Under the pieces are notes generated by a model. That model was not told where the DNA came from. It saw only the letters and a program-made list of their open reading frames with translations, and searched no databases. A DNA stretch of 34,723 bases, taken from the NCBI GenBank assembly GCA_020846695.1, contig JADLDM010000198.1:1-34723 (forward strand). The letters are read 5' to 3'. Below are positions 4,371 through 31,308 of this stretch, one piece after another. The position numbers and the translations under genes are program-made. The stretch's first letter is position 1; each line of letters starts with the position of its first letter. This DNA comes from a bacterium (GTDB lineage Bacteria; Electryoneota; RPQS01).

Positions 4371-6632
4371 ATGATTCGCGTTGAATCCACGCCGGAATTT
4401 GTGGCGGCTGCGTACCTGAAGATGGAAGAGCGGATTGCAGTCGCTCGGAAGAAGCTCGGGCGCCCGCTGTCGCTTGCTGAGAAGATTATTTTAGGACACT
4501 TGGATGATCCCAAGACCGATGACCTGACACCGGGAACGAGCTATTTGCAGCTCAGGCCCGATCGAGTTGCGATGCAGGATGCGACGGCGCAGATGGCCTT
4601 GTTGCAATTCATGTCGGCGGGTTTGAAGAGTGTCGCGGTGCCGACGACGGTGCATTGCGATCACCTGATTCAGGCGCGGCTTGGCGCCGATGACGATCTC
4701 AAGAATGCGGTCGTGACGAACAAAGAGGTGTACGATTTTCTCAGATCGGTATCGCAGAAATACAATATCGGTTTTTGGAAACCGGGCGCGGGAATTATTC
4801 ATCAGGTTGTGCTGGAGCAATACGCATTTCCCGGCGGGATGATGATCGGCACGGATTCGCACACGCCGAATGCGGGCGGGCTTGCGATGTTTGCCTCCGG
4901 TGTGGGCGGCGCGGATGCGGTGGATGTGATGGCCGGATTGCCGTGGGAGGTTTTGTATCCGCAGCGCATCGGTGTGCATCTGAAAGGAAAGATGAGCGGA
5001 TGGGCCGCGCCGAAAGATATTATTCTCGTTTTGCTCGGCATTCTTACCGTAAAGGGCGGAACGAATGCGGTGATCGAATATTTCGGTGAAGGCGCCGCGG
5101 CGGTTTCGGCAACCGGTAAGGGGACGATTTGCAATATGGGCGCGGAACTCGGCGCAACGACGTCGGTCTTCCCATATGATTCCGCGATGGAGCGCTACCT
5201 GAATGCAACGGAGAGAACCGCGCTTTCAGACCTTGCCAACAAGCACAAACATCTGCTGACGGCAGACGAAGAAGTGTTGAAATCACCGGAGAAGTATTTT
5301 GACAAGGTGATAGAGATTGATCTGAGCAAGTTGGAGCCTTATGTTGTCGGTCCGCATTCACCGGATGCGGCGCGTCCGATTTCTGAATTGAAGAAGGCCG
5401 CACAGGAGAATGGCTGGCCTGTGAATTTGACGAGCGCGCTGATCGGCTCCTGTACGAATTCCTCCTATGAAGATATTTGCCGCGCGGCGGATATTGCGGA
5501 TCAGGTTTCGGCAAAGGGCAAGAAGGCCGCGATTCAACTGTGGGTCACACCGGGCAGCGAGCAGATTTTTCAGACCATCAAGCGCGACGGTCAGATGCAG
5601 AGATTGGAAAAGGTCGGCGCGACGGTATTGGCGAATGCTTGCGGGCCGTGCATCGGACAGTGGCGGCGCGATGACATGAATCCCGATCAGGCCAATTCGA
5701 TCATCTCATCCTACAACAGAAATTTTCCCGGAAGAAATGACGGCTCGCCGAATACGCTTTCATTCCTGACGAGTCCTGAGATCACCGTTGCGTATGCGAT
5801 GGCCGGAACGCTCGCATTTGATCCGTTAAATGATGAGATTCCGGGAATGGGTTTCAAGTTGAAGGCTCCCGCTCCCGCACCCGACCTTCCCGCGAACGGC
5901 TACATCAAGGATGAGACCGGATATCTTGCTCCCGCGACGGGTGACGTGGAAGTGATTGTGAAGCCTGAATCGGATCGTTTGCAGAAGCTCGATCCCTTCG
6001 CGAAGTGGGACGGCAAGGACTATCTTGATCTACCACTGCTTGTGAAGGCCAAGGGGAAGTGCACAACGGATCACATTTCGCCTGCGGGAAAGTGGCTGAA
6101 GTATCGCGGGCATTTGGATAATATCTCGAACAACATGTTTGAAGGCGCGATCAATGCATTCGATGGTGAGCGCGGAGTGGTGACGCATCCTTTGAGCGGT
6201 GAGAAGAAGATCTCGATCTCGAAAGCGGCGCGGGATGTGAAGGCTGCGGGGTTGAAGTGGGTTGCGGTGGGCGATGAGAATTACGGTGAAGGCTCGTCAC
6301 GCGAACACGCAGCGATGTCACCGAGGTTTTTGGGCTGCGGCGCGGTGATCACACGGAGTTTCGCGCGTATTCACCAGAGCAATCTGAAGAAGCAAGGCAT
6401 TTTGCCATTGACATTTCAGAATCCCGCGGACTATGAAAAGATTCAGGAAGGCGATAAGATTTCGCTTCTGGGTCTTGCGGAACTTTCACCGGGTAAGCCC
6501 GTGAAGATGATTGCCAAGCACGCGAACGGAACATCCGACGAGATGCTGCTCAACCAGACACTGAATGCAGAACAGATTGCGTGGTTCAGAGCGGGGAGCG
6601 CGCTGAATTTGTTGAGGGAGAAGGCGAAGTAG
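4371..6632 (+). CDS. acn: Aconitate hydratase (mitochondrial-type)
   Basis: 753 aa; [90 protein letters not shown]. Confidence 0.97.
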
Positions 6633-6681: not shown

Positions 6682-6707
6682 AAAAGCCCTGCGAAAGCGG
6701 GGCTTTT
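6682..6707. terminator. Bidirectional intrinsic terminator between convergent acn and alr
   Basis: AAAAGCCCTGC-GAAA-GCGGGGCTTTT: 11-bp stem (one T.G) with GNRA loop and A/T tracts on both sides. Confidence 0.85.
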
Positions 6708-7883: not shown

Positions 7884-7908
7884 GCAGCCACGGGGGCAGC
7901 GGCTACAA
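7884..7908 (+). repeat. Dispersed repeat B, copy 3
   Basis: GCAGCCACGGGGGCAGCGGCTACAA. Confidence 0.85.
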
Positions 7909-10784: not shown

Positions 10785-12479
10785 GTGAAGTTAATGAGAT
10801 GGCTATGGGCGATGATCGCCGTGATGATGACGATGAATGTGTTTGCCGCGGTGGATTACAAGGTGGTGACGCAGCAGAATGTGACGGATTCGCGTGAGAT
10901 TGAGATCCTGCGCGAAGAGTTGTTTTTGGGAAGTGAAACGATTGAGCGGATTCTGATCACGGACATTTTGAATGACGGATTCGATCAGAACGACGCGGCG
11001 GTGCTCTATCCGACGGGCAGAGTGTTGCGCTTGGAACCGATTTCTGAGCGGCTTGATTCGCTCTTGCGCTCCTTCAAGCTGCCGCCGAATACGGAGATCT
11101 ATGAGGGCTTGCGCTATCATTCAGCCTATGATTCGGTATCGGTGCAGAGTCGCGGCGGACGCGCGTTAGGTTATGGGCTGATGGGAGGGCTTCAGCAGCG
11201 ACTTGAATTGGGTTATCGCGGGAAGACAGTCGAAGGCTATTTCAAGTTCTCCGAGAGCGGCGCGCAAGTCAGGCTTTGGAATTTCGATTCGACGCGCGTG
11301 AGCTTTCCTTTACCCGAGTCTCCGCGCAGCGATACGGTGATCGTGTTTCAACATGACACGATCTATGTGCCGGAGATTGTGACGGTGGAGAAGGATCCGA
11401 TTGTGATTCGCGACACGGTGTATCTGCCGAGCGAACTCTTGAAGAAGCCGCGCGGATTGTTTTATCGTGAAGCGCTGGGCATGATGGGCGGCGGTTATTC
11501 AATGGCGAATCGCGAAGCATCGCGAGGACGATTGACGATTGCAGCGGGTAACGAGTGGGATTTCGGCGTGTGGGATCAGTGGGTTTCGGGCAGGCAGGAG
11601 ATTGATTCACGCGTTGGCTTGCGCTTCACCGCCGAGATGGCTCCGTGGAAGAGCGACACGCTTTCGCCGAGATTTCTTTCGACGCAAGCGGAGCTGATGT
11701 ACATTCCGGCGTGGGATCGAGGTCTCTTCGCATTCGCCGGAATCCGAGCATTTTTTAGCGACGATTTGTTCTGGGATCGCGTGCGCGCGGGTTGGGATGA
11801 AGATTTGTACAGTGAGCCCTCGGGACAGGACTTGGCGCACTATGAATTTGCGGTGAAGAGCGGGCTCGACAAACTTGCGCCTTACGGCACGGGCAAGAAC
11901 ATCGGATTTTGGTTGAAGGGCGCGGTTTGGCTCGCCGACAAGTCGGGTTACAATCTCGAATTGGATCGTTCCTTGGCAACGGAGTGGATTCCGGCGCTTG
12001 ATGATACATTGCCGTGGCGATGGGAGCACACGGGCGGTTCGGACATCGCGGGAAACGTCAGCGTTCGGGTAATGCAGCAATTGAATGTCTCCGCCGGAGC
12101 CGGCTTGATGACACTACCGAATCTTGACTACAAATATCCGGTGAACGACGCAGGTGCAGCGCGGGCGGGATTGTTTGCTCTTCGCCAATTTTATCAGACA
12201 ATTTCCCTTCGAGTTACGCCGCTTTCGGCGGATGATTATCAATTGCGTGTCGAGGGCAGCTATCGCAACAACGGCGTCTCGGTGAAGTGGAAGGACGGCG
12301 AAGATAAGGACATCATCGAGGAAATTTTCTATCCGTATTTTGAGGCGCCGCAGATAGACGGCAGCGTGCAATTGGATTACAATATTGTGCAGGTGCGCGC
12401 GGGAGTGAGCGCGTTTATGCCGAAGGACTTGGATGCGCAGATCAGGCCGTGGGGCGGATTGTATTTCATGTTTAAGTAA
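10785..12479 (+). CDS. Putative outer-membrane/beta-barrel envelope protein
   Basis: Signal peptide MKLMRWLWAMIAVMMTMNVFAA; C-terminal half rich in alternating amphipathic segments ending GGLYFMFK. Confidence 0.7.
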   Translation: MKLMRWLWAMIAVMMTMNVFAAVDYKVVTQQNVTDSREIEILREELFLGSETIERILITDILNDGFDQNDAAVLYPTGRVLRLEPISERLDSLLRSFKLPPNTEIYEGLRYHSAYDSVSVQSRGGRALGYGLMGGLQQRLELGYRGKTVEGYFKFSESGAQVRLWNFDSTRVSFPLPESPRSDTVIVFQHDTIYVPEIVTVEKDPIVIRDTVYLPSELLKKPRGLFYREALGMMGGGYSMANREASRGRLTIAAGNEWDFGVWDQWVSGRQEIDSRVGLRFTAEMAPWKSDTLSPRFLSTQAELMYIPAWDRGLFAFAGIRAFFSDDLFWDRVRAGWDEDLYSEPSGQDLAHYEFAVKSGLDKLAPYGTGKNIGFWLKGAVWLADKSGYNLELDRSLATEWIPALDDTLPWRWEHTGGSDIAGNVSVRVMQQLNVSAGAGLMTLPNLDYKYPVNDAGAARAGLFALRQFYQTISLRVTPLSADDYQLRVEGSYRNNGVSVKWKDGEDKDIIEEIFYPYFEAPQIDGSVQLDYNIVQVRAGVSAFMPKDLDAQIRPWGGLYFMFK

Positions 12480-12600: not shown

Positions 12601-13323
12601 TTACTCATACAATTCGTCTGCGGCGGCCTCATCGAGAATCCAAATTAAGCGGCCCTCATCAGGATTGACGCGAGTGGCGGGTAGGCGATAATCTTCTTCT
12701 TTCAGAACTTGAAAAACGGTATTTGATTTTTCTTCACCAGTGACGAGGAAGACGCAGGCGCGCGCGGAATTCAAGACGCGCAGCGTGAACGTCAAGCGCT
12801 TCGGGATTGGGTTGTTTGGAATCTCCACTGCTTCAACGAGCGCGCCGGATTCGAGCGCGGAAGTTCCGGGAAAGAGTGAAGCTGTGTGACCATCACTCCC
12901 CATGCCGAGCAGGATGCAATCGAACATCACGGATTCGGGAAGAAAGCGCGAGCGGAGTGTGCGCGCGTAGGACTCGGCGGCATCGTTGAGATTTATCGAA
13001 TCGGCAGGCATGGGAAAGACTTCGCCGACGGGGACTTTCGAGAGCAGGTTGTCGTGCGCGAGTTTATAATTGGAATCGTTGGAGGATTTGGGTACGGCGC
13101 GTTCGTCGCACCAGAAGACTTCCCATTGTGGCCACTCAAATTCATCGCGCCAGTCTTCGGATGCGAGGAGTTCGAAAAGTTCCTTGGGAGTGGATCCGCC
13201 GGACAATGCAATTCGAAAGACGCCGCGTTCGGCAAGCGCTTCTTTTTGCAGTTCGAGAATCACGGATGCGGCTGCATCGGCGACGTCTTCGGGATATTCG
13301 CAGTAGATGATTTCAGGGTTCAT
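12601..13323 (-). CDS. pgl: 6-phosphogluconolactonase (DevB/SOL type)
   Basis: 240 aa; FRIALSGGSTPKELFELLA, VFWCDERAVPKSSNDSNYKLAHDNLL, LGMGSDGHTASLFPGT. Confidence 0.95.
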   Translation of the reverse strand: MNPEIIYCEYPEDVADAAASVILELQKEALAERGVFRIALSGGSTPKELFELLASEDWRDEFEWPQWEVFWCDERAVPKSSNDSNYKLAHDNLLSKVPVGEVFPMPADSINLNDAAESYARTLRSRFLPESVMFDCILLGMGSDGHTASLFPGTSALESGALVEAVEIPNNPIPKRLTFTLRVLNSARACVFLVTGEEKSNTVFQVLKEEDYRLPATRVNPDEGRLIWILDEAAADELYE

Positions 13324-16953: not shown

Positions 16954-18423
16954 TTGCCGGATTCGTCGCGCACATCGGCCTGGTTGCCGCTGGTTTTGTT
17001 GGTTGGGCTTGGCTTGCGGCTCTATGATTTGAGCGGCGAGAGCCTTTGGCTGGACGAGATCGTTACGGGCAACCGCGTGCATGAATCGCTGCGCAATATC
17101 CTGTTTGGTTGGGATTCCGAGACTCAGGGGCCGATCTACTATCTGTGGGTGAAGTTTTGGGGGCTTGCTTTCGGCACGAGTGAGTTCAGTTTGCGCTTGT
17201 GGTCGGTGATCTTCGGCACGCTGACGATTGCGGCAATTTATCGTTTGGGCAAGCAGCTTTTCAGCAACGCGGCCGCGCTCTTGGCGGCTCTGTTTCTCGC
17301 GGTGCATCCCTATGCGATTCACTATTCACAAGAGGCGCGTCCTTACGCGCTTTTTCTGCTCTTCAGCGTCTTATCATACTCGCTTCTGATTTCGCTCTTG
17401 CGTCAGCATCGCTGGTCGGTTGCGTGGGGATTCATTTTCTCGGCGGCGGGAGCGTTTTATACTCATGTCTTCGGGGCGTTTCTGATTCTAAGTCACGTCT
17501 TGATCTATTATTTGTTTCGCACGAGCGCGAAGTATCGCGGCGCAGGCAGGTATCCGAGGCCGTATTTCTGGACTGCGGTAATTCTTGCGCTGATCTGTCT
17601 TCCGGAGTTTGCTCAGGACGCGTTGGCGGGGTGGGAGAAGATTGGCGGAGGCGGATCGGCAACATGGATTCCCGTGCCGACCTTTCTCGCGCTGATCAAG
17701 CTTCCCCTAAGTTACTTTCTGAATCCGTGGGCGGGACTTGCGATTGTTCCGATTGTAGGCGTGCTCGCTTTGGTGAGGGGTTTGAGTGAGCCCCGCGTGC
17801 GACTGGGGATTTGGTTTCTCGGCATTATCGCGCTCTGCTTCTGGGTTCTGCCGTGGATTGTGTCGTTGACGGTAACGCCGCTTTTTGTCTTACGTTATAC
17901 GATGCCCGGTTTGTTGGTGGTGGTCTTCCTGATGGCGATTGCGGCCGCGAGTTTGCAGGCGATGCCGCGACAGATATTGGTGATCTTTCTGTTAGGCGCG
18001 ACCTGCTGGCCGTTGTGGGATTATTACACAAAGGTGGATAAGGATCCGTGGCGGCAGACGGCAGAGTACATTGCTCCTCGTTGGCAGGAAGGCGACGTGC
18101 TGATCGCGATGCCGCAATTTACTCATTCCTCTGCGGTCTGGTATTTCCCGGCTGACGTGAAAGCATCCGCACCGCATGTGCGCAGCGAGGCGGACTTGCA
18201 GTATGCGCTGGCGCGCGCGGAACGATTGTGGGTTGTGCAGTCCTACGAGATTAAGGGCGAAGTAAGGCGGAGAATTGCCGACGCCGCAGGCAGTTGGGGC
18301 AAAGAGGTGCAATCTTCGGATGTTCTGAGCCCACAACAGGTGAATCCCTATGCGACATGGATTGCGCCGATTCATGTCTCGCTGCGCGAGCGGGTCTCTT
18401 CAGATACAACACTTATTCAATGA
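16954..18423 (+). CDS. GT39/ArnT-like polytopic membrane glycosyltransferase (GT-C type)
   Basis: TTG start; GLRLYDLSGESLWLDEIVT, QGPIYYLWVKFWG, SEFSLRLWSVIFG, HYSQEARPYALFLLFS; multiple hydrophobic helices. Confidence 0.85.
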   Translation: MPDSSRTSAWLPLVLLVGLGLRLYDLSGESLWLDEIVTGNRVHESLRNILFGWDSETQGPIYYLWVKFWGLAFGTSEFSLRLWSVIFGTLTIAAIYRLGKQLFSNAAALLAALFLAVHPYAIHYSQEARPYALFLLFSVLSYSLLISLLRQHRWSVAWGFIFSAAGAFYTHVFGAFLILSHVLIYYLFRTSAKYRGAGRYPRPYFWTAVILALICLPEFAQDALAGWEKIGGGGSATWIPVPTFLALIKLPLSYFLNPWAGLAIVPIVGVLALVRGLSEPRVRLGIWFLGIIALCFWVLPWIVSLTVTPLFVLRYTMPGLLVVVFLMAIAAASLQAMPRQILVIFLLGATCWPLWDYYTKVDKDPWRQTAEYIAPRWQEGDVLIAMPQFTHSSAVWYFPADVKASAPHVRSEADLQYALARAERLWVVQSYEIKGEVRRRIADAAGSWGKEVQSSDVLSPQQVNPYATWIAPIHVSLRERVSSDTTLIQ

Positions 18424-20150
18424 TCTTTTCGATATTGGTATACGCCGCGTCAGCGGCTCTCGCACTTCTCGCGCTGATCGTCCTGGGTTACAAGCCGCGC
18501 ACTGAGATCAACAAGACGTTTCACGCCTACCGCCGGACCCCTGCCTTAAGGAAGACGGTGACGGCGTGGTTTGTTGTGCTGGCCATGACATTCATCGTTG
18601 TTCAGACGCTGCGGTTGCCGTTTTACAAGTACGTGTTCACCGAGCTGACGAAATCGGCGACTCTGTTGCGGACGGGTTGGGAGCCGGTTCATGCGTTGGG
18701 TATGCTGCTTCTACTGCTTTGTGAACTTCTCGTGCTGATGCACTGGCTGGTGTATGTGTATTATTGCTGGCGCGCGACGCACCGGTATGAATTGCCGAAA
18801 GAATTGCCGCTTGTATCGCAACCGGAAGTGCTTGTTGTGATTGCGTGCTGTGATGAAGACCCGGATGTTCTGGAGCGCAGCGTGAGCAGCGTGATGAAGC
18901 AGGACTATCCGAATTACCGCGCGGTGTTGGTGGAAAATTCGCGTGATGAGCGCAAGAAGCATCAGTGCGCAGCGGTTGCGGAGCGGTTCGGGATGCAGGT
19001 TCTGCATATCGCCAATCGCGGACACAAGGCGGGCGCCTTGAATGACGCGATGCTTCAAATTCGCGGCGACGCGAAATATCTTGCAGTCTTCGACGTGGAT
19101 CACGTGGTGAGTAAAGATGCGCTTTCTCAACTCGTGCCTCATTTGGAGGCAGACGATGAAGTTGCTTTTGTGCAGACTCCGCAGCTTTACGCGAATGCGG
19201 AAGAGACGTGGACGACGCGCGCGGCTGCAATGCAGGAGATGCTCCTGTATGATTCGATCATGGAGGCGAAAGGCTCCTACGAGCGCGCGTTGTGCTGCGG
19301 GAGCAATTTTGTGATGCGGATTGAGGCGCTCGAGAGTGTCGGAGGATGGGACGAGGGGACAGTTTCGGAAGATCTGATGACTTCGTTCTTGATCCACAAG
19401 AAGGGCTGGAAATCACTCTATCATCGAGCGGCATTCGCGGTGGGATTGGGACCGAACACGGTTTACGGATATTGGAAGCAGCAGCGCAGATGGGCGACGG
19501 GGAATACGTCGGTTGCCAAGCGGGTCTTCAAGGAGATGTTTGGCATCGGAGGTGTGCGCGCGCCATTCGCATTGAGCGCGGATTATCTTTGGTCGGCGGG
19601 ATATTAATTTGTCAAGCTCGCATTGGCTTATTTGGCGACGGTGCCGATGCTTCTCTTGCTGTTGGTGAGATTCGCGATTGGCGGGCAGACTTGGTATTTG
19701 CAGGAGACGATGCGGCCTGTGGATTGGGTATATCTCTCGGTGTATCCGCTCTATGTTGCGGTGGCGCTGTTTCCCTATGTTCACATGCGCTTGCGAGGGT
19801 ATTCCTTGAGGAATCTCGTTTTGTTGCAGGGACTCCTCGCGAATACGGTTCCCATCTATGTGATTTCAGTGCTGCGCGGGGTCTTTCAGCAGGTGAAGCT
19901 CTTTGTTGTTGTGCCAAAGAAAGCCGTGCAACTCCATCGTCCATTCTGGCGCACTCCGCAGACCTACATCTTCATCGGGTTGCTCATTGTCGGCGGCCTG
20001 CTTTTTCACATGGTGCGGACAGAGCGCGTTGCGCCGTTTGTCTACATTCTGCTCTTCTGGACATTCTTCTATACTCTATCGTTTGCGCACTTTTTCATTT
20101 TCACAATAGAGAGCAGGCGGGTTGTGGAGGCGGAAGCTCGTGGGAAATGA
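18420..20150 (+). pseudogene. Cellulose-synthase-like family 2 glycosyltransferase, interrupted by in-frame TAA at 19605-19607
   Basis: 18420-19607: VVIACCDEDPDVLERSVSSVMKQDYP, DVDH, SEDLMTS, QQRRW; after TAA the same frame continues FVKLALAYLATVPMLLLLLVRF... to 20148-20150 TGA. Start overlaps upstream stop (ATGA). Confidence 0.8.
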
Positions 20151-22124: not shown

Positions 22125-23336
22125 TTACTTCAGGAGCATCATCTTGCGGACGGAAGCGAATGTTCCGGCCTTGAGTTCATAGAAGTAAACACCGGCGGAG
22201 AGATTCGCAGCGTCGAACTCGACGGAGTGTGATCCTGCGGACATCGAGCCCTTGATCAACGAGGAGACCTCGCGGCCCGTGACGTCGAACACGCGCAGGC
22301 TGACATCCGAGGCTTCGCCGAGCGTGAACTCGATGCGCGTCGTGGGATTGAAGGGATTCGGGTAGTTCTGATTCAGCGCAAATTCCGTGGGAGTAACGCT
22401 GTTGATTCCGGCGGTGACGGTAATGCTGTTGCCGAGGGCGTTGCGTGAGCCATCCATTTCCACTTCGACCAAGCGATAGACGTAGGTGCGGCCCACTTCA
22501 ACCGAGCGATCCACGAAGTTGTAGGTGTGTCCATTGGGATTGTCGCCCAGACCATTGACACGACCGCGCAACTCCCAGAGCACACCATTCGCGGATTCGA
22601 TATCGTAGGATGCAACGCTGCTTTCGGCTGCGGTTCTCCACGTCAGCGCGACGCCGTCTTCACGTGCTACCCCGCTGAAGGAGAGCAGTTCAACCGCGAG
22701 CTGAATATCGCAATCAGAGCCGACAAGATAGCCGTCATCCGAATTGCCGTTGTCGAAGTTGTTATTGATGAAATCAACAATACTGTTGAGATCGGATATC
22801 GTCGTTCCGAAGGGAAGGCCGCTCAAATCCCCGCCGAGCACATCGTTCGCGAGATCGAGAATTTGCTGAACCGTCAATCCGGAAAACGGATAGGACGGAT
22901 GATGAAACGCGCTCTGGTAGTAAAGACTCGCGAGATCACAGAATCCGGTCACTCCATAGTTTGAGAATCCGACGGAGATTGCGAGCGCGGTAACCTGACC
23001 GGCAAACACGCCATTGGGAATGGTCGTGGGATCGGTGTAGTCTTGCGGAAGAGAAGACGGAGTCTCACCGACGGGCAAGAAGACACGGACGGCATTCGAG
23101 TTCGAGAAGAAAATTGAGTATCCATTGGCGCCCGGGATGCCGATTTCAAGCCCGCTCGGAAAGGCCGATGCGAAATACTGATCGCGAAGGCAGCCGGGAT
23201 TATTCCCGTTGCAGTTGGCGCCCCAACCGCCTTGGGTTTGCGTGCGGCAGCCTTCCGGAACGCAGGGGTTCGGCTGGGCGAAAGCAGAGGAAGTAACGAC
23301 AAGCAATACGGTCAAAATCAGCACAGACCTCTTCAT
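22125..23336 (-). CDS. Secreted protein with T9SS type A sorting domain
   Basis: ATG at 23336: MKRSVLILTVLLVVTSSAFAQ; C-terminus NQNYPNPFNPTTRIEFTLGEASDVSLRVFDVTGREV...GVYFYELKAGTFASVRKMMLLK. Confidence 0.9.
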   Translation of the reverse strand: MKRSVLILTVLLVVTSSAFAQPNPCVPEGCRTQTQGGWGANCNGNNPGCLRDQYFASAFPSGLEIGIPGANGYSIFFSNSNAVRVFLPVGETPSSLPQDYTDPTTIPNGVFAGQVTALAISVGFSNYGVTGFCDLASLYYQSAFHHPSYPFSGLTVQQILDLANDVLGGDLSGLPFGTTISDLNSIVDFINNNFDNGNSDDGYLVGSDCDIQLAVELLSFSGVAREDGVALTWRTAAESSVASYDIESANGVLWELRGRVNGLGDNPNGHTYNFVDRSVEVGRTYVYRLVEVEMDGSRNALGNSITVTAGINSVTPTEFALNQNYPNPFNPTTRIEFTLGEASDVSLRVFDVTGREVSSLIKGSMSAGSHSVEFDAANLSAGVYFYELKAGTFASVRKMMLLK

Positions 23337-23625
23337 CGAGTATCTCCATAAAATTAATGAGCTAAGCAAAGAAGGCGGAATTCGCCCGCATTTCGTTCAT
23401 AATATATACTAAACATAGTCAGAAGTCCAGAGCGTTATGGGTCGTTAGCATACTTGATAAATTTAATCATATTTTAACATTATTATAATAAATCATATAG
23501 AAGATCTGGAATGGAATTCAGCAAGGTAAATAGAAATCTACACATAACGAGTGTGGTGTGGTTTCACTTTCCCGTGAATGACACCAGACCCAACCGTGCA
23601 ATTGACGATTGAGAGAGGCATACTC

Positions 23626-23910: not shown

Positions 23911-25590
23911 CTATTTCATCAGGACGAGCTTCTGCGTGGAGACATTGGCTCCGGCGCGAAGCTGAGCGAAGTAGAGACCTGAAGGCAGTTCAGTCGCATT
24001 GAAGCTGATGCTGTGCGATCCGGCAGTCATCGGGCCATTCACGAGCGTGGCCACTTCCTGTCCGAGCGAGTTGAACACGACGAGCGAGACATTGCTGTTG
24101 TTCGCGAGGTCAAAGCGCAGCGAAGTCGCCGGGTTGAAAGGATTGGGGAATGCGCCATGGAAAGCAAACGACGACGGCAAACCAATCGGCGCGTCGTCGG
24201 CATCGGTTCCTTCAAAGGTGACATGCACGGTAAATTCATCAATGGTTCCAACGTCCGCCGCCTCAGTGTCTTCCACACGAAGCGTCCACGTTCCGTCCGC
24301 GTTGAATCCGTCGAGCGCTTCAAGGTCTTCGGCCGGTTGCCACGACCCAGTGTAAGGAGCGCCACCGGCCGCGTATCCAAACGGAGTCGCTGCTTCATCA
24401 TCAAATCGGCAATTCACCATGTTCGCTCCTGCGGGCACTCCGGTAGGATCCGGCGCCAGCATGACGGTATCCGCCCACGGGGTGATAATCCAAATCACGC
24501 AGTCGGAAACATAGGTGTGCGTGATGTTCACGGTGACATCAATATCCGTGATCAAATGATCATCGGGGATGTTGAGCGTCATGTTTGCGAAGGCTTGATC
24601 TGGAATGTTCACCGGATTCGCGGTTGAAGTATAGCTCTGTTCGCTGAGATTAAGGAAGAGCAATTGCGCGTTAACGACCACGTCTTCTCCGTCGCCGACG
24701 ACCACATTCTCAATGGTCTCGGGTTCGTAGCCGTTCTTCGAGAAATTCAGTGTATAGGTCCCGGCAAAGACGTTAGAGAATTCGTAGTCACCATTCGCGT
24801 CGGTCGTCGTTCTTGCTCCACCTTCGATTTCGACGTTTGCTCCGGAAATCGGCGTACCTGACAGCAATTCGGTCACGGTTCCGCTAATGGTTCCGGGCGT
24901 TCCGGTGAAGTATTCAATCAGAACGTCGTCGAGTTTCAGAATGAACTCATCTACCGAGGTGTAATGGAATGCGACATAGAACGGCGCACCGGAAAACTCG
25001 GAGAGATTATCAGTGTATTGAGTGTAAGCGGAAGGCACATCTACATGCGTGGAAACCAAATTTGTGAAGTCAGCCGGGGCATTTCCTGTGGTCGAGACCC
25101 GTACCTCAAAAGTCTCAAGATAGGCAGGATCTTGCGATGCGGCCCAGTAGGAAAGCTCAATTGTCCCTGTGAGGTTTTGCTGAGGGAGAATCAACCAATC
25201 GTTATTCGCGACCGGCGGGCTGTTGTAAGCATTGGCAACGAACTTGGTGCCGGAGTGCGCCGGAATGCCGGAGAAGACAATCCAACGCGAGAATCCGCCG
25301 AATCCAGTGACGATGCAGGTTCCATTGTCTTGGTCCACCTGCGTCCAGCCCGTCGGCAGCTGACCATTGGAGTAAGCTTCAAAATCCTCGGAAAGCGCTA
25401 TCTCGTCGAGATTGTTGTTCTGGCGAACATACGTTCCTTCACCGGACGTCATCGCTTCGAGCTTTGCCGGGTTCGTGATTGACCCGTCTTTGGCAACCAG
25501 AGACGCGAGCGGTCCTTTGCCGGACGCGAGCGCGGCTCCCGCGATCAGCAAACTTAACAGAAGTGCAAACAGTTTAACATTACGAAACAT
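23911..25590 (-). CDS. Secreted multidomain protein: choice-of-anchor J-like + CarboxypepD_reg-like + proprotein convertase P-domain-like + T9SS tail
   Basis: DFEAYSNGQLPTGWTQVDQDNG...; GTISGTVTELLSGTPISGANVEIEGGARTTTDANGDYEFSNVFAGTYTL; IPDDHLITDIDVTVNITHTYVSDCVIWIITP...GTWTLRVEDTEAADVGTI; FPNPFNPATSLRF...QKLVLMK. Confidence 0.88.
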   Translation of the reverse strand: MFRNVKLFALLLSLLIAGAALASGKGPLASLVAKDGSITNPAKLEAMTSGEGTYVRQNNNLDEIALSEDFEAYSNGQLPTGWTQVDQDNGTCIVTGFGGFSRWIVFSGIPAHSGTKFVANAYNSPPVANNDWLILPQQNLTGTIELSYWAASQDPAYLETFEVRVSTTGNAPADFTNLVSTHVDVPSAYTQYTDNLSEFSGAPFYVAFHYTSVDEFILKLDDVLIEYFTGTPGTISGTVTELLSGTPISGANVEIEGGARTTTDANGDYEFSNVFAGTYTLNFSKNGYEPETIENVVVGDGEDVVVNAQLLFLNLSEQSYTSTANPVNIPDQAFANMTLNIPDDHLITDIDVTVNITHTYVSDCVIWIITPWADTVMLAPDPTGVPAGANMVNCRFDDEAATPFGYAAGGAPYTGSWQPAEDLEALDGFNADGTWTLRVEDTEAADVGTIDEFTVHVTFEGTDADDAPIGLPSSFAFHGAFPNPFNPATSLRFDLANNSNVSLVVFNSLGQEVATLVNGPMTAGSHSISFNATELPSGLYFAQLRAGANVSTQKLVLMK

Positions 25591-30183: not shown

Positions 30184-31308
30184 ATGAAAGACCCTCGTCA
30201 TAAGAAGCTCGCCGAAGTGCTGGTGCGTCATTCGACGCGCGTGAAGCCCGGCGACAAAGTATTGATCGAAATCAACGATGTTCCGCCGGAATTTACAGCC
30301 GTGCTCTTGCAGGAAGTCTGTGATGCGGGCGGTTTGCCGGTTCTGGAGCACAAGTTCCAGATGCACAATCGCGCAATGTATCTGAATGCTACCGAAGAGC
30401 GCATGAAGCTGATTGCGGACATCGAACTCTACCGCATGAAGCAGATGGATTGCTACATCGCCGTGCGCGGAATTTTCAATTCAAAAGAATTGACCGACGT
30501 GCCGGGTGACAAGATGTCACTATATGAGAAATTTTGGCTGAAGCCCGTGCATCTGAAGCAGCGTGTCGAGGAGACGCGCTGGGTGGTGCTGCGCTTCCCC
30601 TCGCCGCAGATGGCTCAGATGGCCAAGATGTCCTTTGATACCTTCGAAGATTTCTACTATCGCGTCTGCTGCGACGTGGATTGGGAGAAAGCGGAACGCG
30701 CGATGGTTCCCGCCAAGGCTTTCATGGAGAAGACCGACAAGGTTCACATCAAGGGACCGGGTACCGACCTGCAATTCTCGATCAAGGGCATTCCTGCGGT
30801 TCCCTGCGGCGGGCATATGAACATTCCCGATCTGGAAATTTTCACCTCACCCGTGCGCACCTCGGTCAACGGCAAGATCAGCTACAATGCTCCCTCGACC
30901 TATCGCGGCTTCACCCATGAGCACGTCGTGTTGGAATTCAAGGACGGCAAGATTATCGCCGCGACCTCGAATGACACCAAGCGCATCAACGAGATTTTCG
31001 ATACCGATGAAGGCGCGCGCTATGTCGGCGAATTTGCCTTAGGGTTCCATCCCTTCGTGATGAATCCCATGGACGACATTCTGTTTGACGAGAAGATTTG
31101 CGGTTCGTTGCACTTCACTCCGGGCCAGGCCTATGAGAAGGAAGCGGACAACGGCAATCGCAGTCAGATTCACTGGGATTTGGTGCTGATGCAGCGTCCC
31201 GAAAACGGCGGCGGCGAAATCTGGATGGACGGCGTGCTGATCCGCAAGGACGGCAAGTTCCTTCACGAAGCCTTCCTCGCCATGAATCCCGAGAATCTGG
31301 TGAAGTAA
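30184..31308 (+). CDS. M29 (thermophilic metalloprotease)-family aminopeptidase
   Basis: 374 aa; VKPGDKVLIEI, GGHMNIPDLEIFTSPVRTSVNGKISYNAPSTYRG, DEGARYVGEFALGFHPF...ILFDEKICGSLHFTPGQAY, IHWDLV. Confidence 0.88.
   Translation: MKDPRHKKLAEVLVRHSTRVKPGDKVLIEINDVPPEFTAVLLQEVCDAGGLPVLEHKFQMHNRAMYLNATEERMKLIADIELYRMKQMDCYIAVRGIFNSKELTDVPGDKMSLYEKFWLKPVHLKQRVEETRWVVLRFPSPQMAQMAKMSFDTFEDFYYRVCCDVDWEKAERAMVPAKAFMEKTDKVHIKGPGTDLQFSIKGIPAVPCGGHMNIPDLEIFTSPVRTSVNGKISYNAPSTYRGFTHEHVVLEFKDGKIIAATSNDTKRINEIFDTDEGARYVGEFALGFHPFVMNPMDDILFDEKICGSLHFTPGQAYEKEADNGNRSQIHWDLVLMQRPENGGGEIWMDGVLIRKDGKFLHEAFLAMNPENLVK

Follow-up and report, generated by a model that had tools for sequence, protein, structure and literature searches.

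An in-frame TAA in a cellulose-synthase-like glycosyltransferase gene of a draft bacterial genome, most likely a base error or a recent nonsense mutation

The window analysed here (a stretch of 34,723 nucleotides, contig 204 of a 2.5 Mb draft genome that comprises 215 contigs and is 81% complete) carries a family 2 glycosyltransferase (GT2) gene at 18420-20150 on the forward strand, a single gene broken by one in-frame TAA. We consider that this stop, which occurs in this assembly only, is a consensus base error or a genuine recent nonsense mutation, with a probability of roughly 0.88 for the two together. A consensus error of the draft assembly is about an even bet, and a genuine mutation in the sampled strain is somewhat less probable than that. 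An assembly artefact in the first case, or a change inside the cell in the second, would have put A at the third base of an invariant tyrosine codon (TAC or TAT) to give TAA. The stop is present in the sequence but ordinary in kind, and most likely does not mark a new type of gene.

The interrupted gene and its surroundings

The codons around the stop read GAT TAT CTT TGG TCG GCG GGA TAT TAA TTT GTC AAG CTC. The initial annotation, made from the sequence alone, had described a GT2 frame that is split by the TAA and resumes without a frameshift, and this description holds, as both halves align unbroken to one ortholog. The ATG start of the gene overlaps the TGA of the upstream gene (ATGA, 18420-18423), and the post-stop frame is closed by a TGA at 20148-20150; if unbroken, the gene would encode 576 residues. 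Five hydrophobic segments were found by hydropathy in the 3' part, which gave no match when searched alone against Pfam. The features of the locus are listed in Table 1, together with the interruptions found elsewhere in the draft genome.

Table 1. Coordinates of the interrupted GT2 gene, its neighbours and further interrupted genes of the draft genome (positions of the L-numbered genes refer to their own loci outside the window)
Feature	Position	Strand	Description
Upstream neighbour, PMT_2-like membrane glycosyltransferase	16954..18423	+	Conserved; PF13231, E=1.5e-15; collinear in G006 and G010
GT2 5' part	18420..19607	+	ATG to premature TAA, 395 codons; glycosyltransferase domain with DVDH, SED and QQRRW
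Premature in-frame TAA	19605..19607	+	Tyr (TAC/TAT) in 8/8 aligned homologs by codon alignment
GT2 3' part	19608..20150	+	180 codons, five predicted membrane helices, TGA end
Downstream neighbour, 631 aa	20158..22053	+	Conserved; collinear in G006 and G010, 44-47% identity
TonB-dependent receptor (L057)	4918	-	TAA; Tyr in 4/5 relatives, Phe in one
Secreted protein (L159)	1501		TAG; Tyr in 9/9
Secreted protein (L181)	8070		TAG; Tyr in 8/9
gcvPA (L150)	82	-	TAA; Tyr in 9/9
CorC-like gene (L177)	4467	-	TAA; Glu in 8/8
secD (L188)	1771		TAG; variable linker
PEGA-like protein (L205)	2664		TAG; Phe in the single relative compared

The 5' part matches Pfam PF13641 (E=3.4e-27; 96 bits against a cut-off of 27) and also PF13632 and PF00535. 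The motifs named in the initial annotation are all present in the translation, where DVDH, SED and QQRRW represent the DxD, TED-like and QxxRW motifs, the last at residue 354. The gene shares with processive GT2 enzymes of the BcsA type a GT2 domain in which DxD, SED (replacing TED) and QxxRW lie between membrane helices, and residues 186-413 of the window protein align with BcsA itself (4hg6/5ej1, E=1e-24). By comparison with the BcsA sequence, the stop is placed near the start of the post-catalytic membrane segment, so that these helices lie behind the TAA here, whereas they form part of the same polypeptide in the full-length orthologs. The gene differs from cellulose synthases of the CelA/BcsA type in its score against TIGR03030 (134.6 bits, against an equivalog cut-off of 699.1) and from PgaC in its match to TIGR03937 (103 bits, far under the equivalog cut-off). 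These NCBIfam scores fall too far under the cut-offs to assign a polymer to the enzyme. Judged from its sequence, the locus is one ordinary processive-type, cellulose-synthase-like GT2 gene.

The window is collinear with G006 from the gene at 6707 through the gene that ends at 31308, and with G010 over much of this block. In the comparison with G006, all genes of the block that have a counterpart match it in one piece, with the exception of GT2. The 631-aa downstream gene begins 7 bases after GT2 and has no match in Pfam or NCBIfam. The window also encodes secreted proteins at 23911-25590 and 22125-23369 (-) with a C-terminal Por_Secre_tail sorting domain, as in type IX-like secretion; a search with such a tail gives about 100 hits in each genome of the family.

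The stop position in orthologous genes

In six relatives (G001, G002, G004, G006, G009 and G010), which represent five other genera of the same family, the GT2 gene is a single stop-free frame of 602-627 aa; in G008 only a fragment at a contig end was recovered. Tyrosine, encoded by TAC or TAT, occupies the stop position in all eight aligned loci, which amount to seven distinct genes since L005 and L032 are apparently one gene, and which take in a distant homolog from outside the phylum (G060) that also has tyrosine. The proposal that the lost residue is the second tyrosine of a YY pair, one base away from the observed codon, is therefore borne out, and the ortholog alignment recommended in the initial annotation finds the stop in this assembly alone. 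As tyrosine is invariant in the relatives, one third-position change explains the stop. A frameshift or paired indels near the site were considered and found unneeded, since one base suffices to turn the YYF of the nearest ortholog, G010, into the Y-stop-F of the window.

Identity to G010 is 71.8% before the stop and 76.5% after it, and identity to G006 is 70.2% and 74.3%, respectively. With 180 downstream codons 76% and 74% identical to the single-frame gene of two relatives, the split arrangement is not due to chance. At positions where G006 and G010 agree, the window differs at 49/300 before the stop and 26/152 after it; among positions invariant in the aligned orthologs, it is changed at 3/112 and 1/41 (4/153 overall). 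These substitution counts indicate that the 3' part has not decayed. The similar identity on both sides, with no second lesion, indicates that the stop is recent or not real. Searches found no genomes of the same species and no viral relatives. The next-best matches inside the assembly are only 25-26% identical, and it shows no close paralog to replace the gene.

If the stop is genuine, translation would end at residue 395, and the truncated product would keep its catalytic domain along with three hydrophobic segments near the N-terminus, but not the later membrane helices. In BcsA, the helices that follow the catalytic domain help to line the polymer channel. Without them, loss of activity would be expected, and the truncated form is presumably inactive. 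The initial annotation had listed assembly or sequencing error, recent mutation and a two-polypeptide enzyme formed by reinitiation as options; we keep the first two and drop the third, for reasons given below. Like other nonsense-interrupted genes or draft base errors, the locus shows one in-frame stop, intact orthologs and no other lesion, and it departs from such cases only in the excess of tyrosine at the other interrupted sites of the genome, which random error does not predict. A further point against an error is that the stop sits 15 kb inward from both ends of the contig, in sequence whose consensus would be expected to be good. A literature search for premature stops that arise from sequencing error in metagenome-assembled genomes returned nothing.

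Other interruptions and alternative readings of the stop

The draft genome was surveyed over 1.39 Mb for same-frame pairs of open reading frames in which a single stop is flanked on either side by sequence that looks coding, and the candidates were then aligned with relatives. This yielded eight TAA or TAG interruptions without a counterpart in the relatives, namely GT2 and seven more; many other same-frame pairs were judged by eye to be adjacent genes from their start codons and recognisable N-termini, and the list is thus at least eight. One TGA interruption (L053) falls at a variable position. Three of the eight are found near contig ends, at distances of 82, 337 and 367 bases, whereas the outermost 400 bases of the contigs make up 6.1% of the sampled bases (P about 0.01). 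secD is essential in well-studied bacteria. The clustering at contig ends, and the fact that secD and gcvPA are among the genes hit, suggest that some of the eight interruptions are consensus errors. A lone split gene carries little weight in itself, but it warns of isolated false or recent stops in this draft, including those in secD and gcvPA.

Five of the eight interruptions (GT2, L057, L159, L181 and gcvPA) hit a conserved tyrosine. Weighted by codon usage, tyrosine would be expected to account for 24% of the single-base routes to TAA or TAG, and for 15% under a fourfold excess of transitions, so that the excess has a P value of 0.023 (24%) to 0.003 (15%) in a test that is partly post hoc. 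Three of the five tyrosine sites were already known when the pattern was formulated, and the secD site was worked out along with the third of them; the four sites resolved later gave two Tyr, one Glu and one Phe (in the relative). An error spectrum rich in transversions would raise the expected share of tyrosine and weaken the excess.

The tyrosine excess would be accounted for if UAA and UAG were sometimes read as tyrosine, by a suppressor tRNA-Tyr or by near-cognate pairing of the ordinary tRNA-Tyr, with changes of TAC or TAT to a stop being tolerated; stops at tyrosine positions would then accumulate in functional genes. An anticodon UUA would enable a tRNA-Tyr to read both codons. In yeast, near-cognate decoding of UAA and UAG by tRNA-Tyr has been described (review PMC8482273), and queuosine loss raises readthrough of both codons in Vibrio cholerae (PMC11703503). 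Beyond the five sites, the sixth, in L205, has Phe opposite it in the one relative compared, and searches of the assembly found no release factor RF1, which would fit such suppression. The absence of RF1, however, fits an assembly that is 81% complete; TAG is in use as a stop, RF2 is present, and RF2 is likewise missing from two relatives. At two of the eight sites the residue replaced is clearly other than tyrosine (Glu in the CorC-like gene and a variable linker in secD), and the late framing of the pattern also tells against suppression.

The behaviour of TAA and TAG as terminators weighs on the same side. Among 721 long reading frames, 207 end in TAA and 208 in TAG (29% each), and no excess of a second stop was seen behind these ends. 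Window genes that end in TAA (for example at 12479, at 12601 on the minus strand and at 31308) align with their relatives right up to the final residue, indicating that TAA terminates here. Wholesale recoding of TAA is thereby ruled out, in agreement with the view of the initial annotation that the genome as a whole is not recoded. No tRNA with anticodon TTA or CTA was present among the 26 tRNA matches in this 81% complete assembly, and the single tRNA-Tyr identified carries anticodon GUA. The best candidate for a second tRNA-Tyr, a DNA match at the beginning of contig C29, proved to be a chance match of 18 bases rather than a tRNA. In ciliates that use NCBI table 29, UAA and UAG encode tyrosine. 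The present genome resembles that code in having TAA or TAG at conserved tyrosine positions in five genes, but differs from it in that these codons normally end more than half of the long frames and no matching tRNA was found. Occasional reading of UAA and UAG as tyrosine is accordingly a long shot, and its fuller form, in which both remain ordinary stops and a suppressor tRNA-Tyr is missing from the assembly or decoding is leaky, is no more probable. Were it confirmed, it would provide a natural bacterial example of suppression by tyrosine insertion.

A two-polypeptide enzyme, in which the second half would be made by reinitiation at TTG 19623, GTG 19641 or ATG 19647 and would associate with the first half, is very unlikely. 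In its favour, the frame after the stop is intact and opens shortly before the first post-catalytic membrane helix. However, no Shine-Dalgarno-like sequence precedes any of the three in-frame starts, translation from any of them would remove part of the first helix behind the stop, and the five predicted C-terminal helices are missing from the first half. No ortholog is split, which rules out a two-gene arrangement and disposes of the stable, shared split that the initial annotation had named as the result that would overturn an error or mutation. Programmed, regulated readthrough of the stop as a switch has next to no likelihood: it can draw on the open downstream frame and nothing else, none of the relatives examined has the stop, so that the orthologs already contradict this reading, and the conserved in-frame stops of the family are TGA (for example in a peroxiredoxin) whereas that of GT2 is TAA.

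Conserved in-frame TGA codons

Three in-frame TGA codons were observed elsewhere in the same genome (G000), each on the minus strand. In L098 (contig 85, TGA at 7905), a peroxiredoxin gene, the TGA falls at the position of the peroxidatic cysteine (FFYPADFTFV-TGA-ATEF). The TGA is kept in G001, G002, G003 and G009, and cysteine is present in G007 and G008. L098 is very likely a selenocysteine peroxiredoxin; a search of the incomplete assembly found no tRNA-Sec above the cut-off.

In L160 (contig 23, TGA at 4903), a membrane protein gene with a ferredoxin-like C-terminus is split by TGA. Its counterparts are separate frames with a TGA in G006 and G010 and one fused frame of 817 aa in G007, and the locus may represent two genes rather than recoding.

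In L202 (contig 195, TGA at 6436), the in-frame TGA aligns with a TGA in G003. The matches in G002, G006, G009 and G010 also contain one TGA each. L202 is a candidate for a new selenoprotein family or for another conserved case of TGA readthrough.
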